Shown here piece by piece: positions 1,387 through 19,496 of a stretch of DNA of 44,158 bases. This stretch comes from an uncultured Clostridia bacterium (GTDB taxonomy: Bacteria > Bacillota > Clostridia > Oscillospirales > Acutalibacteraceae), in assembly GCA_947589485.1 (NCBI GenBank), contig CANQBK010000007.1, forward strand, positions 1 through 44,158. Reading direction: 5' to 3'. Position numbers and translations under genes: made by a program. The notes beneath the pieces were generated by a model, which ran no database searches, was not told the DNA's origin, and worked only from the letters and a program-made list of their open reading frames with translations. The first letter of the stretch is position 1. Each line of letters starts with the position of its first letter.

Positions 1387-2589
1387 TTATCGGGCGCATA
1401 ATTCCATTATATCAGGAAAAGGCGCAAGACTGCGTTTTAATATACCGTTCATATATGCGATTGCTGTTCCGTAATTTGTTATTGAAACGGATTCGTCTTG
1501 GGCGCATTTGAGGCGGTACTGCATTTCACGTTCGCTGAGCATACACCCTCCGCAATGGATAATAAGTGAATATTTTGAAAGTTCTTCCGGAAATTCTGTA
1601 CCCGACGTCCACTCGAAATTTATGTTTTTTCCCGTATATTTTTTTATAAGTGCCGGCAGCTTTATTGTTCCTATGTCGCCGCATTGACGATGATGTGTGC
1701 AGCCCTCGGAAATAAGAACCGTATCTCCGTCATTCAATCTGTCAAGGGCGGTTACTCCCTCAACAACAAGCCGTAAGTTTCCCTTGTAATTTGCAAAAAG
1801 AATTGAAAACGATGTCAGAACAATATCATTCGGAACAATTTTACTTACCTTTGCAAATACTTGGCTGTCGGTTATTACTATTTTTGGTTTGTCCTTTAGG
1901 GCGGCAAGAGTATTTTCAAGCTCTGTGTCCTGTGTTACTACCGCAGAAGCGTGTCCGTCCAGAATGTCACGAATTGTTTGCTGCTGTGGAAGTATAAGCC
2001 TTCCTTTTGGAGCAGCTTTATCCACGGGAACGACAAGCACGGCAATATCTCCCTTGTTGAGCTTATCGGATATTATATGCTTTTGGTTTTCAAGTCCTTT
2101 TACTTGTTTTGCGATAAGCTCTTTGAGTTCATATATATTTTCACCGCTTTTTGCGCTTACGCATATTTCATTTTCTCCGTTGATAGTGACTGCGTTAATG
2201 TCACTTTTGTTATATGCGATTATATAAGGTATTTTCTTGTCCTTTATTTTTTCAAGCAGGGCATTGTCCTGTTCGGTAATTCCGACGGCGGAATCGACAA
2301 CAAGTATTGCTACGTCTGTTTTGTTAAGAACCTGATAGCTTTTTTTTACTCTTAAAGCTCCCAAATCCCCTTCATCGTCAATTCCCGGCGTATCTATAAC
2401 CACAACGGGACCCAACGGCAAAAGTTCCATAGCCTTTGAAACGGGGTCGGTTGTCGTACCTAAAACATCTGAAACTATTGCCAAATCCTGTCCGGTTACC
2501 GCATTTAAAACACTCGATTTTCCTGCATTTCTGCGCCCAAAAAAAGCAAGGTGCAGGCGTTCGGCAGATGGTGTGGAATTTAAACTCAT
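1387..2589 (-). CDS. hydF: [FeFe]-hydrogenase H-cluster maturation GTPase HydF
   Basis: HydF is the scaffold on which the 2Fe subcluster is assembled before transfer to apo-hydrogenase. Starting at the ATG at 2589 it has 400 residues, near the family norm of about 400-410. The GTPase domain shows the P-loop GRRNAGKSS (residues 18-26), GTTTDP, DTPG (66-69) and NKSD (127-130). The iron-sulfur ligands are CTHH (C297, H299) and HCGGC (C346, C349). The upstream TTG at 2595 is less likely, because GGAG is spaced properly from the ATG. It follows hydG by 17 nt and is the last maturase gene of the operon. Confidence 0.96.
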   Translation of the reverse strand: MSLNSTPSAERLHLAFFGRRNAGKSSVLNAVTGQDLAIVSDVLGTTTDPVSKAMELLPLGPVVVIDTPGIDDEGDLGALRVKKSYQVLNKTDVAILVVDSAVGITEQDNALLEKIKDKKIPYIIAYNKSDINAVTINGENEICVSAKSGENIYELKELIAKQVKGLENQKHIISDKLNKGDIAVLVVPVDKAAPKGRLILPQQQTIRDILDGHASAVVTQDTELENTLAALKDKPKIVITDSQVFAKVSKIVPNDIVLTSFSILFANYKGNLRLVVEGVTALDRLNDGDTVLISEGCTHHRQCGDIGTIKLPALIKKYTGKNINFEWTSGTEFPEELSKYSLIIHCGGCMLSEREMQYRLKCAQDESVSITNYGTAIAYMNGILKRSLAPFPDIMELCAR

Positions 2590-2606
2590 TGTCAATCACT
2601 CCATAT

Positions 2607-4028
2607 TTAAAATCTGAAATCTCTGTATCCGTTATGAATTTCTGATAAATGACTGCGTGTTATTTCACGCACTTTTTCCTTTGGAATATTGTCAAGTTCA
2701 CGCAAAATCAGTTCTTCACCGATTTTTGCAGTTTCGGGTGACGCATAATCTTCAAGATATTCTTTAAGGGTCATAAGTGCGTTGGGGTGACAGCAGTTTT
2801 GAATTTGTCCGGCTTTGCAAAGAGACATAAAGCGGTCGCCCGTTCTGCCCTCACGGTAGCAGGCGGTGCAGAAACTCGGTATGTAACCAAGCTCCATAAG
2901 CCAATGAACGACTTCATCAAGTGTACGTCTGTCGCTTACGTCAAATTGAGCCGAGTCCTCGTTTTCGTCACACGGTTCGGCATAACCGCCGACACTTGTT
3001 TTCGAGCCGCCGCTTATTTGAGAAATGCCCAAGCGCAAAACACGCTCACGGCTTTCTTTGCTTTCTCTTGTTGAAACTATCATACCCGTATAAGGAACGG
3101 CAATTCTTATGCAGGCAACAATTTTAGCAAAAGTATCGTCTGAAATTCCGTTGTCAAAGGCATCGGGGTCCACATCATCGGCACGTCTTACGCGCGGAAC
3201 ACTTATAGTATGCGGTCCAACGCCGAAACGCGCTTCCAAATGCTCGGCGTGCATAAGTATTCCGACAAATTCGTAGCGGTACAGTTCAAGACCGAACAGA
3301 ACGCCGCACCCTACATCGTCAATACCTGCTTCCATTGCTCTGTCCATTGCCTCGGTATGATAGCTGTAATTATGTTTCGGACCTGTCGGGTGAAGTCTTT
3401 CGTAGGTTTCCTTATTGTATGTTTCCTGAAACAAAATATATGTTCCTATTCCTGCGTCTTTAAGTTTTTTGTAATTTTCGTGGGTGGTAGCGGCAATATT
3501 GACGTTGACGCGTCTTATGGCTCCGTTTTTATGTTTTATGTTGTATATTGTATTAATGCTTTCAAGAACATATTCAATCGGGTTGTTTATGGGGTCTTCG
3601 CCTGTTTCGAGTGCCAAGCGTTTATGTCCCATATCCTGAAGTGCTATAACCTCTTGACGAATTTCTTCTTGTGTAAGTTTTTTGCGTGGGATATGCTTGT
3701 TTTTTGCGTGGTAAGGGCAGTACAGGCAGCCGTTAACACAATAATTAGACAGATACAGCGGAGCAAACATAACAATACGGTTCCCGTAATAGTCCTGTTT
3801 GATTTTTTCCGCAAGCGCATAAATTTCTTTGTTTTTTTCTTCTATATCGCAGTCGAGCAACAGAAGTGCCTCTTTGTGTGAAAGACCTTTTTCGAGTTTT
3901 GCCTTTTCAAGAACGGAATCAATAAGTTCAGCATTATGCTTATTTTTTTCCGCATATTCAAGACATTCCCTTATTTCGGCATCGTTTATAAATTCCTCTG
4001 CAATTGATGATTTTGGATCGTATTTCAT
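2607..4028 (-). CDS. hydG: [FeFe]-hydrogenase maturase HydG (radical SAM tyrosine lyase)
   Basis: HydG cleaves tyrosine and produces the CO and cyanide ligands of the H-cluster. The 473-residue length is typical. The radical-SAM cluster motif is CVNGCLYC (C97, C101, C104). The C-terminal auxiliary cluster motif CX2CX22C is intact, beginning CTAC around residue 392, and separates HydG from ThiH. AAGGAG lies upstream of the ATG. It sits 31 nt downstream of hydE in one transcription unit. No hydrogenase structural gene is in the window, so the target enzyme must be encoded elsewhere. Confidence 0.97.
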   Translation of the reverse strand: MKYDPKSSIAEEFINDAEIRECLEYAEKNKHNAELIDSVLEKAKLEKGLSHKEALLLLDCDIEEKNKEIYALAEKIKQDYYGNRIVMFAPLYLSNYCVNGCLYCPYHAKNKHIPRKKLTQEEIRQEVIALQDMGHKRLALETGEDPINNPIEYVLESINTIYNIKHKNGAIRRVNVNIAATTHENYKKLKDAGIGTYILFQETYNKETYERLHPTGPKHNYSYHTEAMDRAMEAGIDDVGCGVLFGLELYRYEFVGILMHAEHLEARFGVGPHTISVPRVRRADDVDPDAFDNGISDDTFAKIVACIRIAVPYTGMIVSTRESKESRERVLRLGISQISGGSKTSVGGYAEPCDENEDSAQFDVSDRRTLDEVVHWLMELGYIPSFCTACYREGRTGDRFMSLCKAGQIQNCCHPNALMTLKEYLEDYASPETAKIGEELILRELDNIPKEKVREITRSHLSEIHNGYRDFRF

Positions 4029-4059
4029 TTTAAATTCTCCTTGTGTAAAATTATTTAGG

Positions 4060-5100
4060 TTAAATTTGTTTTACGTCGCCTCTGGTTACGGCTATATTGT
4101 ATCCTATTGACTCCATACGCTTGTTCAGGCAAAAACGACATTCGGCTGCCTCGTCACCTGTGCATATTTTGTTGTCGTAAAGCAGGTATTTTTTTCTGAC
4201 GGAACGGGGGGAAAGGTTTGGCATAACAACGTTTGCCCCTGCCAAAATTCCTTTTTCTCGTCCGAGCGGATGTATTGTTCCCAACGCTGTGGTAGACGGT
4301 AAAAGCGCATAGGGAAGTGTAAGACGTAAAAGACCTATCATAAACAGTGTTTGTTCAAGAGTGCCGTTTGGTTTGTCACGGAACGGCGTGTCGTGATGTG
4401 AGATAAACGGACCTATACCGACCATGTGCGGTTGTAGTTCTTTTATAAACAGCATATCGTCCGCAAGATTTTCTGCCGTTTGATATGGAGAACCTACCAT
4501 AAAGCCGCACCCTACTTGATAACCGATTTCTTTAAGGTCGTAAAGGCACTTTTTTCTGTTAACGGGTGAAAGGTTATGCGGATGCAGTTTACCGTAATGT
4601 TCATTGTCCGCAGTTTCGTGGCGAAGCAGGTAGCGGTCGGCGCCGGCGTCAAAATACGCTTTATAACTTTTATGTTCGTGTTCACCTATGGAAAGGGTCA
4701 ATGCACAGTCCGAATATTCGGATTTAATGCTTTTTATTAAATCTACTATTATATCATCGGTAAAGTACGGATCCTCACCGCCTTGCAGGACAAATGTGCG
4801 AAAGCCGAGTTCATATCCTTGTTGGCAGCAATCCATAATTTGTTCTTTTGTAAGACGGTAGCGTTCGGCATTCTTGTTGCTGCGGCGTATACCGCAGTAG
4901 AGGCAGTCGTTTTTACAGTAGTTTGTAAATTCAATAAGTCCCCGAATATAAACGTCTTTACCGTAGTATTTTTGACGTACTTCCCGAGCAAGTGAAAACA
5001 GATATTCAGAATCCTTGTCGGTATGGGAGGAAATAAGTGTCACATATTCTTCCTTAGTCAATACGGAAGTTTCATAGAGCTTATCAATAAGATTTTTCAT
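4060..5100 (-). CDS. hydE: [FeFe]-hydrogenase maturase HydE (radical SAM)
   Basis: HydE is a radical-SAM enzyme of H-cluster assembly, thought to act on an iron-cysteine complex to build the diiron unit. This 346-residue protein has the radical-SAM motif CKNDCLYC (C62, C66, C69). Near the C-terminus it has a second cysteine set of form CX7CX2C (CTGDEAAECRFC), the optional accessory cluster seen in some HydE proteins. Its ATG overlaps the stop of the preceding regulator gene (ATGA), so the two are translationally coupled. A BioB or PylB relative is the main alternative, but the neighbours make HydE secure. Confidence 0.96.
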   Translation of the reverse strand: MKNLIDKLYETSVLTKEEYVTLISSHTDKDSEYLFSLAREVRQKYYGKDVYIRGLIEFTNYCKNDCLYCGIRRSNKNAERYRLTKEQIMDCCQQGYELGFRTFVLQGGEDPYFTDDIIVDLIKSIKSEYSDCALTLSIGEHEHKSYKAYFDAGADRYLLRHETADNEHYGKLHPHNLSPVNRKKCLYDLKEIGYQVGCGFMVGSPYQTAENLADDMLFIKELQPHMVGIGPFISHHDTPFRDKPNGTLEQTLFMIGLLRLTLPYALLPSTTALGTIHPLGREKGILAGANVVMPNLSPRSVRKKYLLYDNKICTGDEAAECRFCLNKRMESIGYNIAVTRGDVKQI

Positions 5101-7058: not shown

Positions 7059-8798
7059 TTAACTGTTGTTAAAGTTGTAGTTTATAGTTGTTTCTCTTAT
7101 TGAAGAAAATGTATTGTAAAGGTTAAGTCTGCCGTAACCCCATTTTACATTAGGATATGTGATATTCTCTTCACGCACACAACCGCTTATCATAAGGCTT
7201 TTTATAAGGTCACCGTTTATTGTAGGCATATTTCCCTGTACAATGCCCCATTCCATAAGCAGAGCTGCGGCTCCTGACGTAACGGCTGCCGCCGCGCTTG
7301 TTCCGGTCATTGTTCCGTATCCCGTAGGATAAATTCCTTTTACGTCAACTCCGGGAGCAACAAAGTCGGGAGCTATTCTGGGCAAGCGTGTAGGTCCCCA
7401 AGAGGACGAAACCAAAAGGCTGTTATCTTTTGTGTTGTATGCGCCGCAGGTTATGGTTCTCATTGCGGCGGCAGGATATACTATTGTATATTCGGGTACG
7501 GGCTTTAAAAATTCCACATTCTCGCTTACCTGACCCGTAATGGGCAGCCAAGCAAAATATTGACCGTCTATTATTGAATCCCCGAAAAGGCGTATATCCC
7601 ATATACCTTCGGTGGCATTTTTAAATCCGATGATAAGGTTATTGTTTATATCTTTAAAATAATTTATAAATATTGTTGTATCTTCCAACACCAAATTTTC
7701 GGAATATTCCAGTCCTGATTTAAACGGTATGCGCGGAATGGCTTCTCCCGTCGGAGAAACTACACCTACGGATACTTTATCAAATGCCGGACCGAATATT
7801 ATTACCGAAAATGATTCGCCTTGTGCGCCCACTTTAAGGCTGACGGTTTCCACGGTATTTCCTGGCGGAATGGTTCCCTGCGTATGGTGCCGTGCGTTGG
7901 CTTCGTTTCCTGCGGCAGTTACAAATGCGTTTCCGGGACGCTGAGATATAAATGATATATAATCCTCAAACAATGTGTTTCCGTCGTGTGCGCTGGTGTT
8001 TGAACCCATACCGATACATATTACGACCGGCATATTGACTTCGGCGGCTTTATCAAGAATATATTTTATTCCCAAAAGATAATCGGACGATTCGTAAAGA
8101 TTCGGGTTATCGGGAGAAAGAAGGTATTTGTTAATATAGTAATTTCTTGCCCGTTTTAGTTTTACTGCGATAATATCACAAAGCGGTGCCGCTCCAACAT
8201 ACTCTCCTGTATCATTGGCTGCGGCTACCGACGCAAGAAAAGTGCCGTGTCCGTCCTCGTCAATGGTAGGGACTATATCGTTTGGACGTTCTGATTGAAG
8301 AGCCTCATTTATTTTTTCACGGCTGTATGTCGAGCCGAAATAAAGATTTCCCTCACGTTCTCCGTCAACCGTTTGGTCCCATATACTCAAAATTTTGCTT
8401 GTGCCGTCGTCAAATTTGAACGCATCTTGCGTATAGTCTATTCCCGTATCCACGAATCCTATAATTACGCCTCTGCCTGAAAGTCTGAGAAACGGTTGAT
8501 TGAGTACCTGTGTAATGCCGCTGCTGTCGTTGCTCTGAATATCGACGGGCGACATTATTTTAGGATAAAATGTAAGGAAATCACTTCCCAAATCTTCAAG
8601 AATTTGCGGTATATATTTTTCGTTTGCGTATACAACGCTGTAATTGTTTGTAAATTCTGTACCGAAATGTATATAGGGTCTTTCTTTCAGATATTCCCTA
8701 AAACGTTCCGAGCTTATTACCTGAAAATCCACGGTTGTCGGCAGCTTGACAAACTCAGACAAGGGCAGGTTATCTTCGTTTATAGGCTGATTATTCAT
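7059..8798 (-). CDS. csp: Csp-family subtilisin-like germination protease (second copy)
   Basis: This is a 579-residue S8 protease of the clostridial Csp group, which cleaves pro-SleC in the spore. It has an N-terminal prodomain (about 1-95) and an intact triad: D117 in GFVDTGIDY, H184 in DGHGTFLAS and S501 in MTGTSAAAA. The large segment between His and Ser fits the jelly-roll insertion known in Csp proteins. The triad is complete, unlike the C. difficile CspC and CspA pseudoproteases, so activity is expected. GGGGGTG lies upstream of the ATG. It sits between the other csp (83-nt gap) and sleC (11-nt gap to the preferred start). Which of CspA, B or C it matches cannot be settled by eye. Confidence 0.9.
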   Translation of the reverse strand: MNNQPINEDNLPLSEFVKLPTTVDFQVISSERFREYLKERPYIHFGTEFTNNYSVVYANEKYIPQILEDLGSDFLTFYPKIMSPVDIQSNDSSGITQVLNQPFLRLSGRGVIIGFVDTGIDYTQDAFKFDDGTSKILSIWDQTVDGEREGNLYFGSTYSREKINEALQSERPNDIVPTIDEDGHGTFLASVAAANDTGEYVGAAPLCDIIAVKLKRARNYYINKYLLSPDNPNLYESSDYLLGIKYILDKAAEVNMPVVICIGMGSNTSAHDGNTLFEDYISFISQRPGNAFVTAAGNEANARHHTQGTIPPGNTVETVSLKVGAQGESFSVIIFGPAFDKVSVGVVSPTGEAIPRIPFKSGLEYSENLVLEDTTIFINYFKDINNNLIIGFKNATEGIWDIRLFGDSIIDGQYFAWLPITGQVSENVEFLKPVPEYTIVYPAAAMRTITCGAYNTKDNSLLVSSSWGPTRLPRIAPDFVAPGVDVKGIYPTGYGTMTGTSAAAAVTSGAAALLMEWGIVQGNMPTINGDLIKSLMISGCVREENITYPNVKWGYGRLNLYNTFSSIRETTINYNFNNS

Positions 8799-8881
8799 AC
8801 TTCACCCCCGAATTTTTTGAAAAAAGCGTTTGTATTGATTGTTTACAAAATTACTTTAAACGGTTTTATTGAAATTCGGTA

Positions 8882-10525
8882 TTATGCACCCCATTTATAC
8901 CGTTCCATATATTCTACGGTATTGCTCAGGCATAGTGTACCGTATCCGAATGTTGTGTTGGGATATTTCATATTTGCGTTTCTTTTTGCACCTAAGCGAA
9001 GAAACGCCCTTATCCGTTCTCCATACAGGAACGGAGAGTTTCTGTCTGCAATTCCCCATTGCATCATAAGAGCCGCAGCCCCTGTTACGAACGGGGCAGC
9101 AAAGCTCGTACCTGTAAACGAATCGTATCCACCGCCCGCGCGGGTGGACATAATATTAACGGCAGGTGCGGCTATATCGGGTATAGGCAGTGCAAGGTTA
9201 CTGTTGCCGACGCCGGAGAAATTTGCGATGCTGCCGATTCTGTCATTATATCCGGAAACGCGTATGACCTTTTTTGCCGTTGACGGAATTGTCATTGTAT
9301 CTGTAACTGTCGGACCGGAAAAGTAGGTTTTTGCCGTAACCTCCTCCAGAGTAGGCAGCCATATATTAATATTTCCGTCAACAATGGTTGATGCGATTAT
9401 TCTTAAAAGCCAAAGTCCGGCATCAAGAACACCGTCGGCGGCACGGACGTAAAAATATATTTCCTGACCGACGGAATATCTGCTTGGCTGACCGTACAGA
9501 ACCGTAAGAATCATATTTTTTACACGAACCGTTTTTGTTCGGTTTTCAATGCCTATTACACCTGAACTTGTGCCGTCGGGAAAAATAAGTTCCACGGAAA
9601 AACTGTCCGCAAAATTTTTCCATAATGAAAGGTAAAAGCTGTTAAGCCCTGACGCAGTAAAAAAATTTATATCTGATGTTTTGTTTGAGGTAACGCGTCC
9701 GCTGTAATGGTGACCTGCACTTCCTTCATTTCCGGTAGGGATAATAATACTGCATTTCCATTCATTGCTTATTTCGGATATAAATTCCTCAAACAGACTG
9801 TCGCCCCTATGGGAGCCGCTGTTCATACCGAAACTCATATTTATTGCGACCGCTTTGCCGTATGAGCGTGCCTTGTTTACAGTATACCTCAGCGCACGCA
9901 TAAGTTCTGTACTTTGTGCAAAGAAGTCATTACCTTTTTGTCCCACCTTTACAATAATAAGTTCCGATTCGGGAGCGGCTCCTATAACTTCTCCGCCGCT
10001 TTCAGAGCCGTTTCCTGCCGCTATACCGGCAACGGCTGTTCCGTGTCCGACAGTATCTGATGACGGAACCAACTCTGTATTATTTTCTCTGAGAGCATTG
10101 TTTATTTGTTCGCGTGTATATTCCGTACCCTCGGTGAATCCCTGAGGAGGGTTTCCCTCAACAGATTGGTCCCATATATTAAGTATCCGTGTAGTTCCGT
10201 CGGGATTTTTGAAGTCGGGGTGTGTATAATCTATACCCGAATCAAGAATTGCGACTATAACTCCTATTCCCGTCAATCCGTAGCTTTGAGTGTCATTAAC
10301 ACTTCTTATACAAGAGGAAATAAGATTGAATGATGCTTCAAGATACAGACGTTTTGACAGTTCAATATCCTCTATTTCGGTATATTGGTATAATTGCATT
10401 ATATTGTTTTCGTCAAGAGTAATGATTGCATAAGACGATGACAATATTTCTGCTGTTCCTCCAACAGATGATGCTACGGTATTTATATTGCCGTTATACT
10501 TTACTATAATTTCAGTTTGTGCCAT
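8882..10525 (-). CDS. csp: Csp-family subtilisin-like germination protease (first copy)
   Basis: This 547-residue S8 protease is likely incorporated in the dormant spore and part of the germinant-to-SleC cascade. A prodomain (about 1-75) precedes the catalytic domain. The triad is complete: D95 in VAILDSGIDY, H161 in VGHGTAVAG and S474 in FTGTSFAAP, with the oxyanion Asn in PTGNEGSAGHH. There is no signal peptide, as expected for forespore-made Csp proteins. GGAGGG stands 4 nt before the ATG, and repeat cluster R3 begins about 10 nt further upstream. No sigma-A or clear sigma-G promoter could be read between the repeat and the gene. It heads the csp-csp-sleC unit. Confidence 0.92.
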   Translation of the reverse strand: MAQTEIIVKYNGNINTVASSVGGTAEILSSSYAIITLDENNIMQLYQYTEIEDIELSKRLYLEASFNLISSCIRSVNDTQSYGLTGIGVIVAILDSGIDYTHPDFKNPDGTTRILNIWDQSVEGNPPQGFTEGTEYTREQINNALRENNTELVPSSDTVGHGTAVAGIAAGNGSESGGEVIGAAPESELIIVKVGQKGNDFFAQSTELMRALRYTVNKARSYGKAVAINMSFGMNSGSHRGDSLFEEFISEISNEWKCSIIIPTGNEGSAGHHYSGRVTSNKTSDINFFTASGLNSFYLSLWKNFADSFSVELIFPDGTSSGVIGIENRTKTVRVKNMILTVLYGQPSRYSVGQEIYFYVRAADGVLDAGLWLLRIIASTIVDGNINIWLPTLEEVTAKTYFSGPTVTDTMTIPSTAKKVIRVSGYNDRIGSIANFSGVGNSNLALPIPDIAAPAVNIMSTRAGGGYDSFTGTSFAAPFVTGAAALMMQWGIADRNSPFLYGERIRAFLRLGAKRNANMKYPNTTFGYGTLCLSNTVEYMERYKWGA

Positions 10526-11411: not shown

Positions 11412-11861
11412 TTATTCAAATGCTTTTTGGATTGCCAAAAAAGCAGAATCTGAATCTGATTTTGTAACAAGCAAGGAAATTTGAGATTCACTTGTTGTTA
11501 TAAGCCTTATGTCAGTATGAACCTCTGATACTTTACGGAAAACTTTCGCGGCAACTCCCGGATTGTCCTCCATATCCGAGTCGCTTATCGAAATTTTGCA
11601 GTTTCCGCTGCTCACTATCGGTTTTATTGTACCGTTGTTGAGCTTGGACGTATAGCTTAAAATCTTTACAAGCTCCTCGTCTTTGATTGTAAACGACAAA
11701 CCTGTCATCGAACTTTGAACGGGGGAAAGGGAAATCATATCAACGTCTACGCCCATTGACGCTATTTTTTCAAATACTTCCGTTATAAATTCAATGTCGG
11801 CGGGAATGTTCTGGAGCGTTACCAATGTAATGTCATCACTTACCGTTATGGTTGGTTTCAT
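11412..11861 (-). CDS. ACT-domain protein related to the aspartokinase regulatory region
   Basis: This 149-residue protein seems to consist of two ACT-like modules, comparable with the C-terminal half of aspartate kinase (NPGVAAKVFRKVSEVHTDIRLITTSESQISLLV is the typical second ACT domain). It carries no kinase domain. The ATG at 11861 has AAAGGA 9 nt upstream; an in-frame TTG at 11879 overlaps that site and is rejected. It is the last gene of the lysine-riboswitch operon, 38 nt after dapB. A role as a detached regulatory subunit sensing lysine or threonine is inference. It could also bind an unrelated amino acid. Confidence 0.85.
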   Translation of the reverse strand: MKPTITVSDDITLVTLQNIPADIEFITEVFEKIASMGVDVDMISLSPVQSSMTGLSFTIKDEELVKILSYTSKLNNGTIKPIVSSGNCKISISDSDMEDNPGVAAKVFRKVSEVHTDIRLITTSESQISLLVTKSDSDSAFLAIQKAFE

Positions 11862-11899
11862 ACTTGTCAGTCCTTTCAATTTAATTTATGTGCCGATTG

Positions 11900-12655
11900 T
11901 TATTTTGAGGAAAGGAGGTCGGACATATCATACATATCCGGCTGCTTTCCTTTTAAAAATACCGCTGCGTTTAATGCGCCCACGGCAAATACAGACTTTG
12001 AACGCGCACTATGGCTGATTTTTAAAATTTCGTCCTGTCCGGCAAAAATAATTTCATGCTCTCCGACAATGTTGCCGCCTCTTACAGAATGAATACCGAT
12101 TTCTTTTTTCTCTCTTTTTCTTCGATAAGAATGACGGTCATAAACATATTCGGAGTCGGTTCTGACGCTCTTTACCGCATCGGCAATCATAAGTGCCGTA
12201 CCGCTCGGAGCATCAAGTTTTTGGTTGTGGTGCTGTTCAATGATTTCAACGTCAAAATCGTTTCCGAAAACGGCTGCCGCTTTTTTGGCAAGCTCGGTTA
12301 TAAGGTTGATTCCGAGCGACATATTTCCGGAATAAAAAACAGGAACTGTTTTTGCCGCTTCTGTAAGTTTTCTTTTTTGTTCCTCGCTGAAACCTGTTGT
12401 ACATATTACAAGAGGCATTTTATGAGAAAGCGCGTAATTAAGCATCGAATCAAGAACCGCAGGATTTGAAAAGTCTATTATAACGTCCGCTTCAACATCT
12501 AACTCATTAAAGGATTTTGCAAATACAATATCCGTATTTTGCGGTTCAACCAAATCAACTCCGGCAACTATTTTAAGGTCATCACGATTTTCTGAGGATT
12601 TTAACAGGCTTGCGCCCATTTTGCCGGAACAGCCCGTGATAATAATTTTTGTCAT
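11900..12655 (-). CDS. dapB: 4-hydroxy-tetrahydrodipicolinate reductase DapB
   Basis: DapB reduces the DapA product to tetrahydrodipicolinate with NAD(P)H in the diaminopimelate/lysine pathway. The 251-residue protein has the nucleotide-binding GCSGKMG near the start. It also has the family signature EIIEQHHNQKLDAPSGTA (about 138-155), including catalytic His and Lys residues. The length is normal. It follows dapA by 82 nt and precedes the ACT gene. In a sporeformer the pathway also feeds dipicolinate synthesis. Assignment is secure. Confidence 0.96.
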   Translation of the reverse strand: MTKIIITGCSGKMGASLLKSSENRDDLKIVAGVDLVEPQNTDIVFAKSFNELDVEADVIIDFSNPAVLDSMLNYALSHKMPLVICTTGFSEEQKRKLTEAAKTVPVFYSGNMSLGINLITELAKKAAAVFGNDFDVEIIEQHHNQKLDAPSGTALMIADAVKSVRTDSEYVYDRHSYRRKREKKEIGIHSVRGGNIVGEHEIIFAGQDEILKISHSARSKSVFAVGALNAAVFLKGKQPDMYDMSDLLSSK

Positions 12656-12737
12656 TTTTAAAGCTCCGTTTCTTTATAAAATTGACTGTGCAAAATTGTA
12701 TTGATTTTTCAATCTTGCACAGTCGGGATAAACATAC

Positions 12738-13628
12738 TTATTTTATTATTCCGTATTTAACAAGGCAGTTTTTTAAGTCGTTGTAACCACGCTCACTCAT
12801 AGGAGCAAGCGGCATTCTGCACGGTCCGCAATTAAAACCGCAAAGGTTCATTGCAGCCTTGATTGGAATTGGGTTTACATCGGAAAACAGAGCGTCCATA
12901 AGCTCAATGTATTTCTTTTGAAGCTCAAAACCGCCTTTAAAATCGCCATCAATAGTCCTTTGAATGATTTCGTGCGATTCTCTCGGACAAATGTTTGCGA
13001 AAACCGAAATAACTCCCAAACCGCCCATTGCGGTAATTATAAAGGCTTGGCTGTCCTCGCCGCTGTAAACATCTAAATTGTCGCCGCAAAGAGCCATTGT
13101 CCTGACAAGAGCCGAGGTATTGCCGTTGGCTTCCTTGGTTGCTTTGATGTTCGGATGCTTTGCCAGTTCCGCGTATGTTTCGGGCTGTATGTTGCAGCCT
13201 GTCCTTGAGGGAACATTATAGAGTATGATCGGAATATTTACGCTGTCCGCAATAAAATTGTAATGACGGATAAGACCTGCCTGTGATGTTTTGTTGTAAT
13301 AAGGCGTAACGGAAAGAAGTGCATCTGCTCCGAGTTTTTGTGCCTCAACGGACAGCTCCTTGGCAAACATAGTGTCATTGCTGCCCGTTCCCGCAATAAC
13401 GGGTACTCGGTTTGCAACCTTTTTTACCGTATATTCTATTACCTTGCAGTGTTCGGAATGACTGAGTGTAGCAGATTCTCCCGTAGTGCCGCAGGTTACT
13501 ATTGCGTCCGTTCCGTTATTTATCTGAAAATCAATAAGTCTGCCGTATTCGTCGTAGTTAACGCTGCCGTCATTATTCATAGGAGTAACAATGGCTACGC
13601 CGGAGCCGGTGAAAATATGATCGCTCAT
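12738..13628 (-). CDS. dapA: 4-hydroxy-tetrahydrodipicolinate synthase DapA
   Basis: DapA condenses pyruvate with aspartate semialdehyde, the first committed step of lysine synthesis. The 296-residue TIM-barrel protein has CGTTGESATLSHSEH (the Thr-Thr substrate loop), ILYNVPSRTG with the catalytic Tyr, and IKATKEANG with the Schiff-base Lys. The ribosome binding site GGAGGTAAGCT lies just upstream of the ATG. It sits 79 nt downstream of asd, in the riboswitch-controlled operon. Residues of the lysine-feedback site were not checked in detail. Confidence 0.96.
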   Translation of the reverse strand: MSDHIFTGSGVAIVTPMNNDGSVNYDEYGRLIDFQINNGTDAIVTCGTTGESATLSHSEHCKVIEYTVKKVANRVPVIAGTGSNDTMFAKELSVEAQKLGADALLSVTPYYNKTSQAGLIRHYNFIADSVNIPIILYNVPSRTGCNIQPETYAELAKHPNIKATKEANGNTSALVRTMALCGDNLDVYSGEDSQAFIITAMGGLGVISVFANICPRESHEIIQRTIDGDFKGGFELQKKYIELMDALFSDVNPIPIKAAMNLCGFNCGPCRMPLAPMSERGYNDLKNCLVKYGIIK

Positions 13629-13707
13629 AGCTTACCTCCAATTTACATAATTTATATAAAGTAAGACAAATGTGTAATTTAATATAAATAAGGATTTACG
13701 GGTAAAA

Positions 13708-14790
13708 TTACTTTTGTATATATCCCTCGGCGCATAAAAGCTCCGCAAGGAGGACAGCTCCTCCGGCAGCGCCGCGCAGAGTATTATGTGACATACATAC
13801 AAATTTAATTGTATATTGTGTATCCTCACGAAGACGGCCTATGGAAACAGCCATACCGTTTTCAAGATTGCGTTCGGATTTTATTTGAGGTCTGTCAGGC
13901 TCCGTAAAATAGTGCAAAAATTGCTTCGGTGCGCTCGGAAGTTCAAGCTCCTGCGGTCTGCCCTTATACGTTTCCCATACATTTATGATTTCCTCCATAG
14001 TCGGTTTTTGTTCCAACTCAACAAAAACAGCGGCGGTATGTCCGTCGGAAACGGGTACACGGATACACTGAGAGGTGATTGAAGGCGACTGAGCGTTTAC
14101 AATTTTGCCGTTTTCAATTTTACCCCAAATTTTGAGCGGTTCCTTTTCTGATTTTTCTTCTTCTCCGCCGATGTACGGTATAACATTGTCAACCATTTCG
14201 GGCCATCTTTCAAATGTTTTGCCGGCGCCGGAAATTGCTTGATATGTGCAGGCAAGTACCTTTTTGACCCCGTACTTCATAAGAGGATGTACAGCCGGTA
14301 CATAGCTTTGCAGTGAACAGTTCGACTTTACCGCAACAAAACCTTTTTTTGTGCCAAGACGTTTTTTCTGTTCGTCAATAATTTTTATGTGGTCATTGTT
14401 AATTTCAGGTATAACCATTGGCACATCGGGTGTAAAGCGGTGAGCGCTGTTGTTTGAAACAACGGGACATTCGGCTTTTGCGTAAGCCTCCTCCAACGCC
14501 CGTATTTCGTCCTTTTTCATATCTACGGCGCAAAATACAAAATCTACCTTTGAGGCAACGGACTCAATATCGGACGCGTCCATAATAACCATATCCTCCA
14601 TGGACTTCGGCATAGGACTCTGCATTGCCCAACGTCCGCCGGCAGCTTCCTTGTATGTTTTTCCTGCCGAGCGAGAACTTGCGGCAAGTGCGGTAACATT
14701 GAACCACGGATGATTTTCAAGCAGAGTGGCGAAACGCTGACCTACCATACCCGTGGCGCCGATTATACCGACGTTATATTTTTTCTCCAT
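13708..14790 (-). CDS. asd: Aspartate-semialdehyde dehydrogenase Asd
   Basis: Asd makes aspartate semialdehyde from aspartyl phosphate with NADPH. From the ATG at 14790 the protein has 360 residues, the length of the archaeal/fungal-type branch rather than the short B. subtilis type. It shows the Rossmann motif GATGMVGQRF (residues 11-20) and the active-site Cys in KSNCSLQ. AAAGGAG is 8 nt upstream of this ATG. A longer frame to 14844 would begin inside the riboswitch terminator and is rejected. It is the first gene behind the lysine riboswitch. Confidence 0.95.
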   Translation of the reverse strand: MEKKYNVGIIGATGMVGQRFATLLENHPWFNVTALAASSRSAGKTYKEAAGGRWAMQSPMPKSMEDMVIMDASDIESVASKVDFVFCAVDMKKDEIRALEEAYAKAECPVVSNNSAHRFTPDVPMVIPEINNDHIKIIDEQKKRLGTKKGFVAVKSNCSLQSYVPAVHPLMKYGVKKVLACTYQAISGAGKTFERWPEMVDNVIPYIGGEEEKSEKEPLKIWGKIENGKIVNAQSPSITSQCIRVPVSDGHTAAVFVELEQKPTMEEIINVWETYKGRPQELELPSAPKQFLHYFTEPDRPQIKSERNLENGMAVSIGRLREDTQYTIKFVCMSHNTLRGAAGGAVLLAELLCAEGYIQK

Positions 14791-14841
14791 TATTGTGGCT
14801 CCTTTAAAATAAACTTTAAAAAGCAAACCGTACCCAAATAA

Positions 14842-14868
14842 CAAAAAAACCGGTTTAACAAACCGGTC
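14842..14868 (-). terminator. Riboswitch expression-platform terminator
   Basis: Minus strand hairpin ACCGGTTT, loop GTTA, AACCGGT, then TTTTTTT. It lies between the lysine aptamer and the asd ribosome binding site, as expected for lysine-induced premature termination. Confidence 0.85.
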
Positions 14869-14904: not shown

Positions 14905-15083
14905 TGTAAACGATAGCTCCCCATCATAGTCTTTTTATGATGACAGTGATATGCCGCTGTGACATATCCCCAAAACGAAATTTACCAAAATTCGTTTTTC
15001 GGCGGCAAGGCTATTCGCAGAGTGTCAGCGGTTTTGGAAACCTCGTCCCTGCTACACGCGGAACCGCACCTCTATCCGGAAAC
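14905..15083 (-). promoter_or_regulatory. Lysine riboswitch (L-box) aptamer
   Basis: On the minus strand the aptamer opens with GATAGAGGTGCG (the 5-prime P1 strand GATAG is at 15072-15076, followed by the conserved AGGTGCG) and closes with GGGGAGCTATC (P1 partner CTATC at 14912-14916). Between them is a variable long stem beginning GCCGAAAAACGAA with its partner TTCGTT, and the TGGGG segment, as in the B. subtilis lysC L-box. A consensus promoter precedes it, and a terminator followed by asd-dapA-dapB lies after it. This predicts repression of the operon by lysine. Confidence 0.9.
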
Positions 15084-17676: not shown

Positions 17677-18606
17677 TTAGAACATATCTTTTCGTTTCAA
17701 AATAAAGTATAGTATAACCATCACAATTACGGAAAGCAAAATAGGGAACCACCATATACCGTCAAAGGGCAGTCCGCCTGTAATGTTCATACCGTAAATT
17801 CCGGAAATAACCGTCGGTATTGATACAAGCAGCGTGAGTGAAGCCTGGATTTTCATAACGCTGTTCAGGTTGTTTGATATGATCGAGGCGAATACGTCCA
17901 TTGTACCCGTAAGTATGTGCAGGTATGTTGCCGCCATATCAACAGCCTGTTTTATTTCGATAAGAACGTCCTCCAGAAGATCCTGATCGTCATCGTACAG
18001 CTTTATGTATCTGCCGCGCATAATTTTTTCGAGCGTTATTTCGTCCGACTTTAGGGAAGACGAAAAATACACCAGCGACTTTTCTATGTCAAGCAGTTGA
18101 TTGAGATCCCTGTTTTTTGCTGAACGGCGTAAGTCGCGCTCAATACGGTTGCTGATTTTATCTATCTGTTTAAGATACTGTAAATATTTTGTAGCCATTC
18201 TCAGCATTATGTGCAGTACAAAATGTGTTTTGTAATTTGTAACGACATTGCGTACAACACCTTCGGAAAATTCGCTGAGTACGGTATTTTCCTTAACGGA
18301 TACGGTTATAACATTTTTATCGGTAAAGATAATTCCTATGGGCATCGTTGAGTAGGTTATGTTTTTTGACACCTTTTCAACGACGGGAACATCTATTATG
18401 ATAAGAGTGGTGCCGTTTTCGTTGTCAATATGCGACGACTCCTCTTCGTCAAGAGCCGACCGCAGCAGTTCCGGCGGAATGTTAAAAAAATCGAGGAGAT
18501 ACTGAGTTTCGTCGTCGTCCGGAGAAATACAGTTTACCCAGCATCCTTCTTCGTATTTTTGGATTTCTTCTATTCTGTCATTAACGGTTTTGTAGTAGCT
18601 GACCAT
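17677..18606 (-). CDS. corA: CorA-family divalent cation (Mg2+) transporter
   Basis: This is a membrane channel for Mg2+ or related ions. From the ATG at 18606 it has 309 residues: a large cytoplasmic N-terminal domain rich in acidic residues, a long helix, and two C-terminal membrane segments. The signature GMN is in IYGMNITGG, and the C-terminal helix ends ILKRKDMF. AAAGGG lies 8 nt upstream of this ATG. A TTG-started longer frame (18642) is rejected because it begins inside a leader hairpin. Upstream lie a promoter (18746-18774), a 19-codon leader ORF and alternative hairpins that can hide the ribosome binding site, suggesting translational control. Confidence 0.92.
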   Translation of the reverse strand: MVSYYKTVNDRIEEIQKYEEGCWVNCISPDDDETQYLLDFFNIPPELLRSALDEEESSHIDNENGTTLIIIDVPVVEKVSKNITYSTMPIGIIFTDKNVITVSVKENTVLSEFSEGVVRNVVTNYKTHFVLHIMLRMATKYLQYLKQIDKISNRIERDLRRSAKNRDLNQLLDIEKSLVYFSSSLKSDEITLEKIMRGRYIKLYDDDQDLLEDVLIEIKQAVDMAATYLHILTGTMDVFASIISNNLNSVMKIQASLTLLVSIPTVISGIYGMNITGGLPFDGIWWFPILLSVIVMVILYFILKRKDMF

Positions 18607-18610
18607 TTTT

Positions 18611-18654
18611 TGCGCCCTTTCTGTATTCGGGCGCAAAGACAAAACTATGCGCCC
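18611..18654 (-). promoter_or_regulatory. Mutually exclusive hairpins controlling the corA ribosome binding site
   Basis: Three matching arms are visible on the minus strand: GGGCGCA (18648-18654), TGCGCCC (18629-18635) and GGGCGCA (18611-18617). Arm 2 can pair with arm 1 (7 bp, 12-nt loop), or, extended to TTTGCGCCC, with arm 3 extended to GGGCGCAAA (9 bp, 11-nt loop). Arm 3 contains the GGG of the corA Shine-Dalgarno. Arm 1 overlaps the last two sense codons of the leader ORF, so a ribosome finishing the leader would favour the RBS-blocking form. Confidence 0.65.
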
Positions 18655-18704
18655 TTCGTATTAGGTTCTGTAATAATATGTTTGACGTAAGGGTCGGGAC
18701 TCAT
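18645..18704 (-). CDS. Predicted 19-residue corA leader peptide
   Basis: The ORF encodes MSPDPYVKHIITEPNTKGA and ends in TAG. It begins with ATG at 18704, with GGAG 11 nt upstream, about 35 nt after the predicted transcription start and about 40 nt before corA. The stop codon lies directly after hairpin arm 1 of the leader. The early Pro-Asp-Pro recalls the E. coli/Salmonella MgtL leader (M-E-P-D-P), where acidic/proline codons destabilise ribosomes at low Mg2+. The parallel is inference; translation is not shown, and the ribosome binding site spacing is wide. Confidence 0.55.
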   Translation of the reverse strand: MSPDPYVKHIITEPNTKGA

Positions 18705-18745
18705 AGTATTATCATCTCCACAAAATAAAATCGGTTATATCAATA

Positions 18746-18774
18746 ATTATAGTCAATTTACACGGAATAATCAA
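18746..18774 (-). promoter_or_regulatory. Sigma-A promoter of corA
   Basis: Minus strand: -35 TTGATT (18769-18774), 17-bp spacer, -10 TATAAT (18746-18751). Predicted start near 18739 gives a leader of about 130 nt before corA. Confidence 0.8.
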
Positions 18775-18842
18775 GTGAAAAACAGAAACTTACAAAAACA
18801 CCCTATATATGCCGCATAAAATACTTTGCGCCGTATATAATT

Positions 18843-19496
18843 TCAGCTTTCATCGGACTCAATGGCGGAACCGTCGTTTACCGACTGAAAAGTAATTTTT
18901 TCCAAGGCGCCTTTGTATTTATCCTCAATATCCGAATCGCAGCAAAGTGCCGCCGTAATATATCCGTTATCCGCCATACTGATTTTTCTGAAAAGGGTAA
19001 ATTCGTTACCGCCGTTATCCGTTGCCGTATCCGTAAATATAACGCCCGAATCGGTAAGAGAAACTTCCGAGTTAGGATATTTTTCTTTTAAATAATCGGC
19101 AAGTTCATCGTTGCTTACAGCATCGTAATCGACAAATTCAATAAGGAGAGTCGCCGTACCCTCGTCATTTTGCAGGTAGATTCCGTTTGTCGGAGTGAGG
19201 TCATTATTTTGTGACGAAAATTCCGACGGGAAATATACAGTAAAGAAATTATTGCCGCTTGTTGTGTATTGAAGTGTATTTTTATCCCTGCGTTTTACCC
19301 CTTTGGGCAATATTTCGGGTACTGTTGTTTCTTCGTTTTGTGAGGCTTTTGTGGATGAATCAGATATTTGTTTTGACAGGCGGCTGTTGCTGTAAAAGGA
19401 CGTTTGACTTTTGCTGTCGGGCTTTTTCGAGCCGCAGCCCGCAGCCGCAGCGGCAAATACGGCGGCGGTTATTAAAATGAGGAGGGATTTTTTCAT
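18843..19496 (-). CDS. Putative secreted lipoprotein
   Basis: This 217-residue protein has a lipoprotein signal: MKKSLLILITAAVFAAAAAGC, with Cys 21 as the expected lipidated residue. A Ser/Lys-rich linker follows, then a domain (about 70-205) with alternating beta strands (TSGNNFFTVYFPSEF, LLIEFVDYD, ALCCDSDIEDKYKGALEKITF). That domain resembles the PsbP/MOG1-like folds seen in Firmicute lipoproteins, but I cannot name the family. AAGGAG precedes the ATG by 9 nt. It begins 21 nt after the helicase stop and is probably co-transcribed with it. Function unknown. Confidence 0.82.
   Translation of the reverse strand: MKKSLLILITAAVFAAAAAGCGSKKPDSKSQTSFYSNSRLSKQISDSSTKASQNEETTVPEILPKGVKRRDKNTLQYTTSGNNFFTVYFPSEFSSQNNDLTPTNGIYLQNDEGTATLLIEFVDYDAVSNDELADYLKEKYPNSEVSLTDSGVIFTDTATDNGGNEFTLFRKISMADNGYITAALCCDSDIEDKYKGALEKITFQSVNDGSAIESDES

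Follow-up and report, generated by a model that had tools for sequence, protein, structure and literature searches.

The window, a 44,158-nt stretch of DNA from an uncultured Clostridia bacterium (Acutalibacteraceae, contig CANQBK010000007.1), carries on its minus strand a gene of the CorA family that is preceded by a short open reading frame (ORF) and by a series of complementary segments. From the promoter-like sequence to the gene, the features are as follows.

18746..18774, minus strand: promoter-like TTGATT-17 nt-TATAAT, a motif match that resembles sigma-70 boxes
18702..18716, minus strand: A0, the Shine-Dalgarno (SD)-to-start segment of the leader, GATGATAATACTATG, partner of L (folding and covariation in relatives)
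18645..18704, minus strand: leader ORF MSPDPYVKHIITEPNTKGA, 19 codons, from ATG at 18704 to TAG at 18645 (ORF reading and relatives)
18690..18698, minus strand: codons 3-5, Pro-Asp-Pro, the conserved core of the leader (comparison with relatives)
18648..18654, minus strand: arm 1 (A1), GGGCGCA, the last leader codons (sequence and pairing comparison)
18638..18649, minus strand: L, CATAGTTTTGTC, which pairs with A0 and shares bases both with the stop codon of the leader and with A1 at its 3' end (folding)
18629..18637, minus strand: arm 2 (A2), TTTGCGCCC (sequence and pairing comparison)
18609..18617, minus strand: arm 3 (A3), GGGCGCAAA, overlapping the corA SD (sequence and pairing energy)
17677..18606, minus strand: corA-family gene, 309 amino acids, ATG at 18606 (Pfam profile)

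The ORF and its three arms lie upstream of the gene where the first-pass annotation had located them. The promoter is likewise in its proposed place, but taken alone the match is weak and near chance (2 promoter-like sites in the region versus 1.1 in shuffles); boxes resembling it recur, by eye, upstream in many relatives. The leader is preceded by the SD GGAG, 11 nt 5' of its ATG. By sequence, the downstream gene belongs to the CorA family according to Pfam (PF01544, 176.5 bits against a cut-off of 27), and its score of 109.1 bits for the corA equivalog NCBIfam TIGR00383 is below the cut-off of 200.75. The locus presents a presumably translated short ORF, with an SD of its own, ahead of a gene that is a transporter by Pfam family and whose substrate is presumed. 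The 156-nt leader folds with a z of −2.84, 1 of 200 shuffles being equally stable, and its minimum-energy fold includes a helix between A0 (18713-18702) and a segment within 18649-18638. Rfam at gathering scores places no match on the leader, neither in the window nor in the 36 leader-bearing loci scanned, and the idea that a known RNA family covers it was rejected. At these scores, the only Rfam match in the window is a lysine riboswitch (81 bits, 14906-15082, minus strand) ahead of ORFs at 11412-14844 that are lysine-pathway-like by eye. Also by eye, three neighbouring ORFs at 1387-5100 (minus strand) are like the hydrogenase maturation set HydF/HydG/HydE, and two neighbouring ORFs at 7059-10525 (minus strand) are subtilisin-like proteases.

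The closest comparison is with relatives of corA in named genomes, of which the best 80 of 318 were taken; these come mostly from uncultured rumen MAGs, together with Caproiciproducens, Anaeromassilibacillus and others, and with the window they make 81 orthologous loci. In 70 of these 80 best relatives, the 220 nt ahead of corA contain an SD followed by M-x(1-2)-D-P, compared with 0 of 2463 other 220-nt windows from both strands of the same loci. A motif search placed a leader start in 77 of the 81 loci; in four of the 80 near relatives (L053, L057, L068 and L073) the pattern gave no leader. The 77 include L049, whose start was mis-set by the script and whose leader is by eye MSPGPDIKR; this locus was kept in the A0 swap, A0-helix, covariation, stop-position and openness tests and dropped from the A1:A2, A2:A3, codon-diversity, masking and orthologous-core tests. 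With L049 left out, M-x(1-2)-D-P is present in 72 of 76 orthologous leaders, and a variant core occupies the same place in the other four (MSSDYH, MSSDHY, MGSDYH and MKPGP). The altered cores of L022, L027, L030, L049 and L070 read SSDYH, SSDHY, GSDYH, SPGP and KPGP, respectively.

Leaders of this type extend well beyond the near relatives and occur in many clostridia of the gut and the rumen. In the order of the window, the pattern scores at 24 of 67 corA places, versus 0.9% in shuffles; inspection of 22 non-hits by eye added 13 further leaders, seven with an SPEP core; the other 21 non-hits include many that are partial or look like different CorA paralogues. Across the class, M-x(0-5)-(D/E)-P was found at 27 of 82 corA loci (1.8% in shuffles), with no leader in the remaining 55. 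These 27 comprise six in the order of the window and 21 of the 76 loci from other orders, where the forms include MDADP, MDTDPYPN, MDCDP, MDSDP and MSTDPYPN. Extending the scan to the phylum gave hits at 7 of the 28 best new places (MEADP, MDGDP, MDSDP and MDDP), a raw count made without shuffles that includes one match, L251, which looks like chance. The order and class sets share loci with one another and with the named-genome set. Elsewhere in the genome of the window, a single pattern for acid/proline leaders returned two places, one a 16-codon ORF and the other an ATG that lies within a longer open frame; since the 11-nt SD spacing causes this pattern to miss the window's own leader, the result does not exclude other genes. 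Owing to the comparison with relatives, the case for the leader is much stronger than the sequence of the window alone could make it, and the leader is almost certainly real.

The conservation of the leader is that of a peptide. In 121 distinct leaders, residue 4 is Asp or Glu in 112 and residue 5 is Pro in 112. Pairwise diversity at codon positions 1, 2 and 3 is.11,.13 and.48 for codon 4 and.13,.14 and.41 for codon 5, compared with.48-.72 at all positions of codons 6-11; in this wider set, the low values at positions 1 and 2 of codons 4 and 5 are partly built in, because the search pattern asks for GAY-CCN or near variants. The 54 orthologous near relatives, a set little gated by the pattern (5 of 81 loci left out), give the same picture, with values of.11,.11 and.48 for codon 4 and.17,.20 and.27 for codon 5. 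In a distant clade of 22 leaders, codons 2-5 range from.00 to.09 at positions 1 and 2 and from.25 to.52 at position 3, and codons 9-11 from.61 to.74 at all positions. Asp is also exchanged for Glu, as in the SPEP core seen by eye in seven loci. An element acting solely as RNA was rejected based on this codon-position pattern and the Asp/Glu exchange. The acid/proline residues within roughly the first five codons are thus kept at the peptide level, partly gated by the pattern, and the first-pass claim of an MgtL-like acid/proline leader before a Firmicute corA is borne out by the conserved N terminus and the wide occurrence.

Conservation is confined to approximately the first 5-8 residues; the C terminus, the length and the position of the stop vary widely. 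At loci L061-L081, the leader starts 58, 61, 67 or 70 nt before corA in 16 of 21, always in the same frame, and these same 16 leaders run 26-104 nt into corA out of frame. Most of these 16 also show a compact start-to-start lock, in which the ribosome binding site of the leader pairs with the start codon of corA. Based on the codon-level constraint at its N terminus, the ORF could be thought to encode a small protein that acts in trans. A conserved start followed by a variable remainder, however, points to a nascent-chain type of signal near the start and not to a functional small protein, and many of these leaders end out of frame within corA. A trans-acting product was accordingly rejected and is very improbable.

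Among the arms of the window, A2 can pair with A1 (7 bp, −13.8 kcal/mol) or, as first proposed, more strongly with A3 (9 bp, −15.9 kcal/mol), which holds the corA SD. Over the 54 near relatives, the A1:A2 pairing has a mean of 15.4 versus 10.0 for its control and is ahead in 44 of them; it is also ahead in 27 of 36 loci of the wider set, for which the arm and openness tests used the 36 of 47 leaders with 85-170 nt between leader and corA. It is kept with differing sequences (GGGCGCA/TGCGCCC, GGAACACA/TGTGTTCC and AGGAGTA/TACTCCT). For A2:A3, a first test placed 27 of 54 near and 24 of 36 wider loci above the shuffle mean, and in a better-aimed test of 38 near relatives including the window, 28 exceeded the shuffle mean and 9 the 95th percentile. 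The window, with its 9 bp, has the top score of these 38 loci; by sequence comparison, A2:A3 is strong in the window and only partly conserved in relatives. The conservation on which the first-pass reading depended holds for the ORF motif and for A1:A2, and in part for A2:A3.

The earlier three-arm wiring lacks a further helix. A0, the SD-start segment of the leader, is complementary to the downstream segment L, which in the clade of the window lies directly 3' of A1, inside the A1-A2 loop, and in many members at about −46 to −31 relative to corA. For most members of the distant clade, the start of corA serves as L, from about −4 to +9, with up to 14 bp. Measured against three pseudo-A0 controls, the best A0 helix comes out ahead in 43, 43 and 42 of the 55 near relatives and in 20, 22 and 22 of the 22 distant loci. 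It lies above the 95th percentile of shuffles in 31 of the near and 19 of the distant loci. Among 47 hand-picked leaders of the wider sets, from the order of the window and from other orders, 42 have an A0 helix that beats the mean of its own controls. A swap of A0 between species is a blunt test, since many species share one A0. In a leave-one-column-out analysis of up to 77 leaders, columns −9, −7 to −1 and 0 pair above column shuffles (0 of 500 reach the real value), and the covarying pair types are A-U, U-A, G-C and C-G; this set pools two clades that differ in A0, and its statistics ignore kinship. No clear excess over column shuffles was found at columns −12 to −10, −8, +1 and +2. When only the near relatives are used, none of 500 shuffles reaches the real value at columns −9 and −5 to −2; the distant clade by itself varies too little to be informative (best column −7, 1 of 500). 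By comparison of sequences, then, two helices are conserved, the covarying A0:L and A1:A2. That the ORF and hairpins arose by chance, as the near-chance promoter match might by itself suggest, is contradicted for the leader by its frequency relative to control windows, and for A0:L and A1:A2 by covariation and pairing, respectively; this explanation is scarcely credible.

The predicted consequence of a ribosome at the leader start was visualized by folding with that segment masked. In free RNA of the 54 near relatives, the pairing probabilities are.67 for A0:L,.05 for A1:A2 and.38 for A2:A3. With the leader start masked, A1:A2 rises to.49 and A2:A3 falls to.16. A1:A2 increases by more than.1 in 34 of 54 loci, compared with 29 of 216 controls with shuffled downstream sequence, and A2:A3 decreases in 23 of 54, compared with 11 of 216. 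Both shifts occur together in 21 of 54 real loci versus 1 of 216 shuffled ones, and 33 of the 54 lack the combination. These values are from a repeat without score cuts; an earlier version had taken 36 of the 54 after cuts. In the distant clade, masking the leader start opens the corA start from.09 to.45 in 16 of 16 loci, in a test run without a shuffled control. Placing the ribosome at the leader start instead of over A1 gives a higher mean openness of the corA site in 35 of 45 loci (shuffled 124 of 225), in 23 of 36 of the wider set (shuffled 86 of 180) and in 7 of 10 loci without a clear L by eye (shuffled 27 of 50). The masking results for both wirings predict that corA is ON while a ribosome stays at the leader start. 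The window itself behaves differently: A2:A3 is still.94 with the leader start masked, and the mean openness of the corA site (.30 versus.46) has the wrong sign. The thermodynamics of the window do not flip because A2:A3 is 2.1 kcal/mol better than A1:A2, so A1:A2 would have to form first, co-transcriptionally.

These results bear on the three-arm switch of the first-pass annotation, in which a ribosome at the leader stop masks A1 so that A2 closes the corA site, and abortion at Pro-Asp-Pro leaves A1 to trap A2. The arms are present, A1:A2 is conserved, masking of A1 abolishes A1:A2, and most of the leaders listed reach or pass A1. However, the switch leaves out A0:L, a competitor of A1:A2 in free RNA (.80 versus.05 in the earlier folding of 36 loci), and its A2:A3 element is only partly conserved. 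An OFF state set by a ribosome stopping over A1 is also at odds with the leader stop, which in relatives lies anywhere from before A1 to inside corA. With A1 masked, A2:A3 is raised in 11 of 36 loci and lowered in 6. The two wirings differ in their prediction: without translation of the leader, corA is ON in the three-arm switch and OFF in the A0:L model, as A0:L changes the logic to one where a ribosome at the start means ON. We consider the three-arm switch unlikely, while granting it some weight.

The best explanation, to which we give modestly better than even credence, is that a cis-acting leader sets corA translation by the position of the ribosome on the leader. In the absence of a ribosome, folding predicts that A0:L forms, joined by A2:A3 in the window and in some of its relatives, such that the ribosome sites of both leader and corA would be closed. 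A ribosome initiating on the leader would open A0:L and free L. At low Mg2+, the Asp/Glu-Pro codons may cause the ribosome to hesitate or fall off near the start, by analogy with MgtL and MgtQ; new ribosomes would keep loading at the leader start, A0 would stay covered, A1:A2 would form and corA would be translated. At ample Mg2+, ribosomes would pass through A1 and L, whereupon A0 could re-pair or A1 be covered, and corA would close. A shorter logic is expected for the distant clade, where A0 would pair with the corA start codon and the leader frame crosses the corA start. Several points speak against this scheme. The window does not flip by thermodynamics, 33 of the 54 near relatives lack the combined shift, A2:A3 is weakly conserved, masking of A1 has mixed effects on A2:A3, some corA loci have no leader by scan or an altered core, and the gene scores below the equivalog cut-off. 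Moreover, if fall-off were not followed by fast reloading, A0:L would re-form and close corA. The leader is very probably translated and likely governs corA through A0:L and A1:A2. That the signal is Mg2+, with corA ON at low Mg2+, is a reasonable reading that we infer from the analogy.

Control might instead act on transcription, with leader translation exposing a Rho site and abortion preventing Rho-dependent termination. Control of this kind is described for mgtA and corA of E. coli and Salmonella in the consulted parts of PMC11552253 and PMC11282234, and no intrinsic terminator was found in 18560-18860. Against it, two features of the pairing point to translation: in the window the corA SD lies in A3, and in the distant clade the partner of A0 is the start codon of corA. 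We regard Rho-dependent control as decidedly improbable.

The Mg2+ assignment is supported by the company of the leader. By Rfam, an M-box lies upstream of the leader and in the same direction in 9 of 36 leader loci (L160, L163, L165, L172, L173, L175, L176, L177 and L259), 65-350 nt before the leader start; several of the nine are close kin, and their flank lengths differ. The loci without a recognised leader have an M-box in 1 of 24 (L184), a rate not comparable with the first as 18 of these 24 had short upstream flanks. The tandem loci have the order M-box riboswitch, acid/proline leader, corA, in one direction, and thus two candidate Mg2+ sensors. In two kin, an FMN riboswitch lies just 3' of corA (L172, 2497-2626; L173, 2481-2609). 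The M-box ties the gene and its leader to Mg2+ without proving the signal of the leader. An acid/proline leader could also sense another cue, such as the supply of EF-P or of an ABC-F factor or the general state of the ribosome, and EttA does act on the EPDP motif of MgtL according to the part of PMC11282234 consulted. As the gene is of the CorA family and an M-box accompanies the leader in a quarter of the leader loci scanned, a cue other than Mg2+ seems improbable.

Taken together, the analysis suggests that Clostridia and other Firmicutes may possess an old ribosome-based Mg2+ sensor before corA that is independent of the enterobacterial ones. It would consist of an M-x-x-(D/E)-P leader whose own start is an arm of the switch, with a ribosome on codons 3-5 unlocking corA, in at least two wirings, one of them start-to-start, and in some loci behind an M-box, giving two sensors per transcript; this composite proposal is, as a whole, about as apt to fail as to hold. 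If true, Mg2+ sensing by ribosome instability on acid/proline codons is recurrent and old and not an enterobacterial speciality. The natural variants in Clostridia (PDP, PEP, DADP, DTDP, DCDP and SDP cores, and the different wirings) make the rules of ribosome destabilisation testable outside E. coli, and the tandem loci raise the question of why one transcript should carry two Mg2+ sensors. In the open-licence PMC literature, as far as its consulted parts go, no description of such a leader before a Firmicute corA was found; most subscription papers and all preprints fall outside that collection. A ribosome-based sensor of the MgtL or MgtQ sort is known, and the lineage, the gene and the wiring appear to be new here.

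The nearest parallel is MgtQ, an 8-residue ORF before mgtB of Salmonella that controls translation. As described in excerpts of PMC8092293, stems 1:2 and 3:4 form the OFF state with the ribosome binding site closed, stem 2:3 forms the ON state, and a ribosome on region 1 switches the system to ON. Mutation of the mgtQ start codon lowered mgtB in the same account, matching what the A0:L model predicts for the clostridial leader, and the proline codon of MgtQ matters there through pairing and not as a residue. From these excerpts, both systems place acidic codons near the start of an ORF ahead of an Mg2+ transporter gene, and A0, A1-L, A2 and A3 would correspond to regions 1, 2, 3 and 4. Unlike MgtQ, the clostridial leader belongs to another phylum, precedes corA behind a promoter-like site of its own and has an x-D/E-P core; its region 1 is its own SD-start, and the distant clade pairs A0 with the corA start. 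On MgtL, the mgtA leader of E. coli and Salmonella, ribosomes dissociate at an early EPDP in low Mg2+ (PMC11282234 and PMC11552253, in part). The clostridial leader resembles it in the early acid/proline motif, but MgtL uses Rho-dependent termination and the clostridial pairing points to translation. CorL, the corA leader of E. coli and Salmonella, is likewise a short ORF whose RNA adopts alternative structures; according to PMC11552253, it differs in the single proline of its conserved N-terminal region and in its control by Rho. The M-box (ykoK, RF00380) also mediates Mg2+ control, but as an RNA aptamer and not through a translating ribosome, and its covariance model has no match in the window. 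Finally, the order of the tandem loci recalls M. tuberculosis, where an M-box is followed by a conserved upstream ORF before pe20; from the part of PMC12810186 consulted, that ORF is mycobacteria-specific and its role is unclear.
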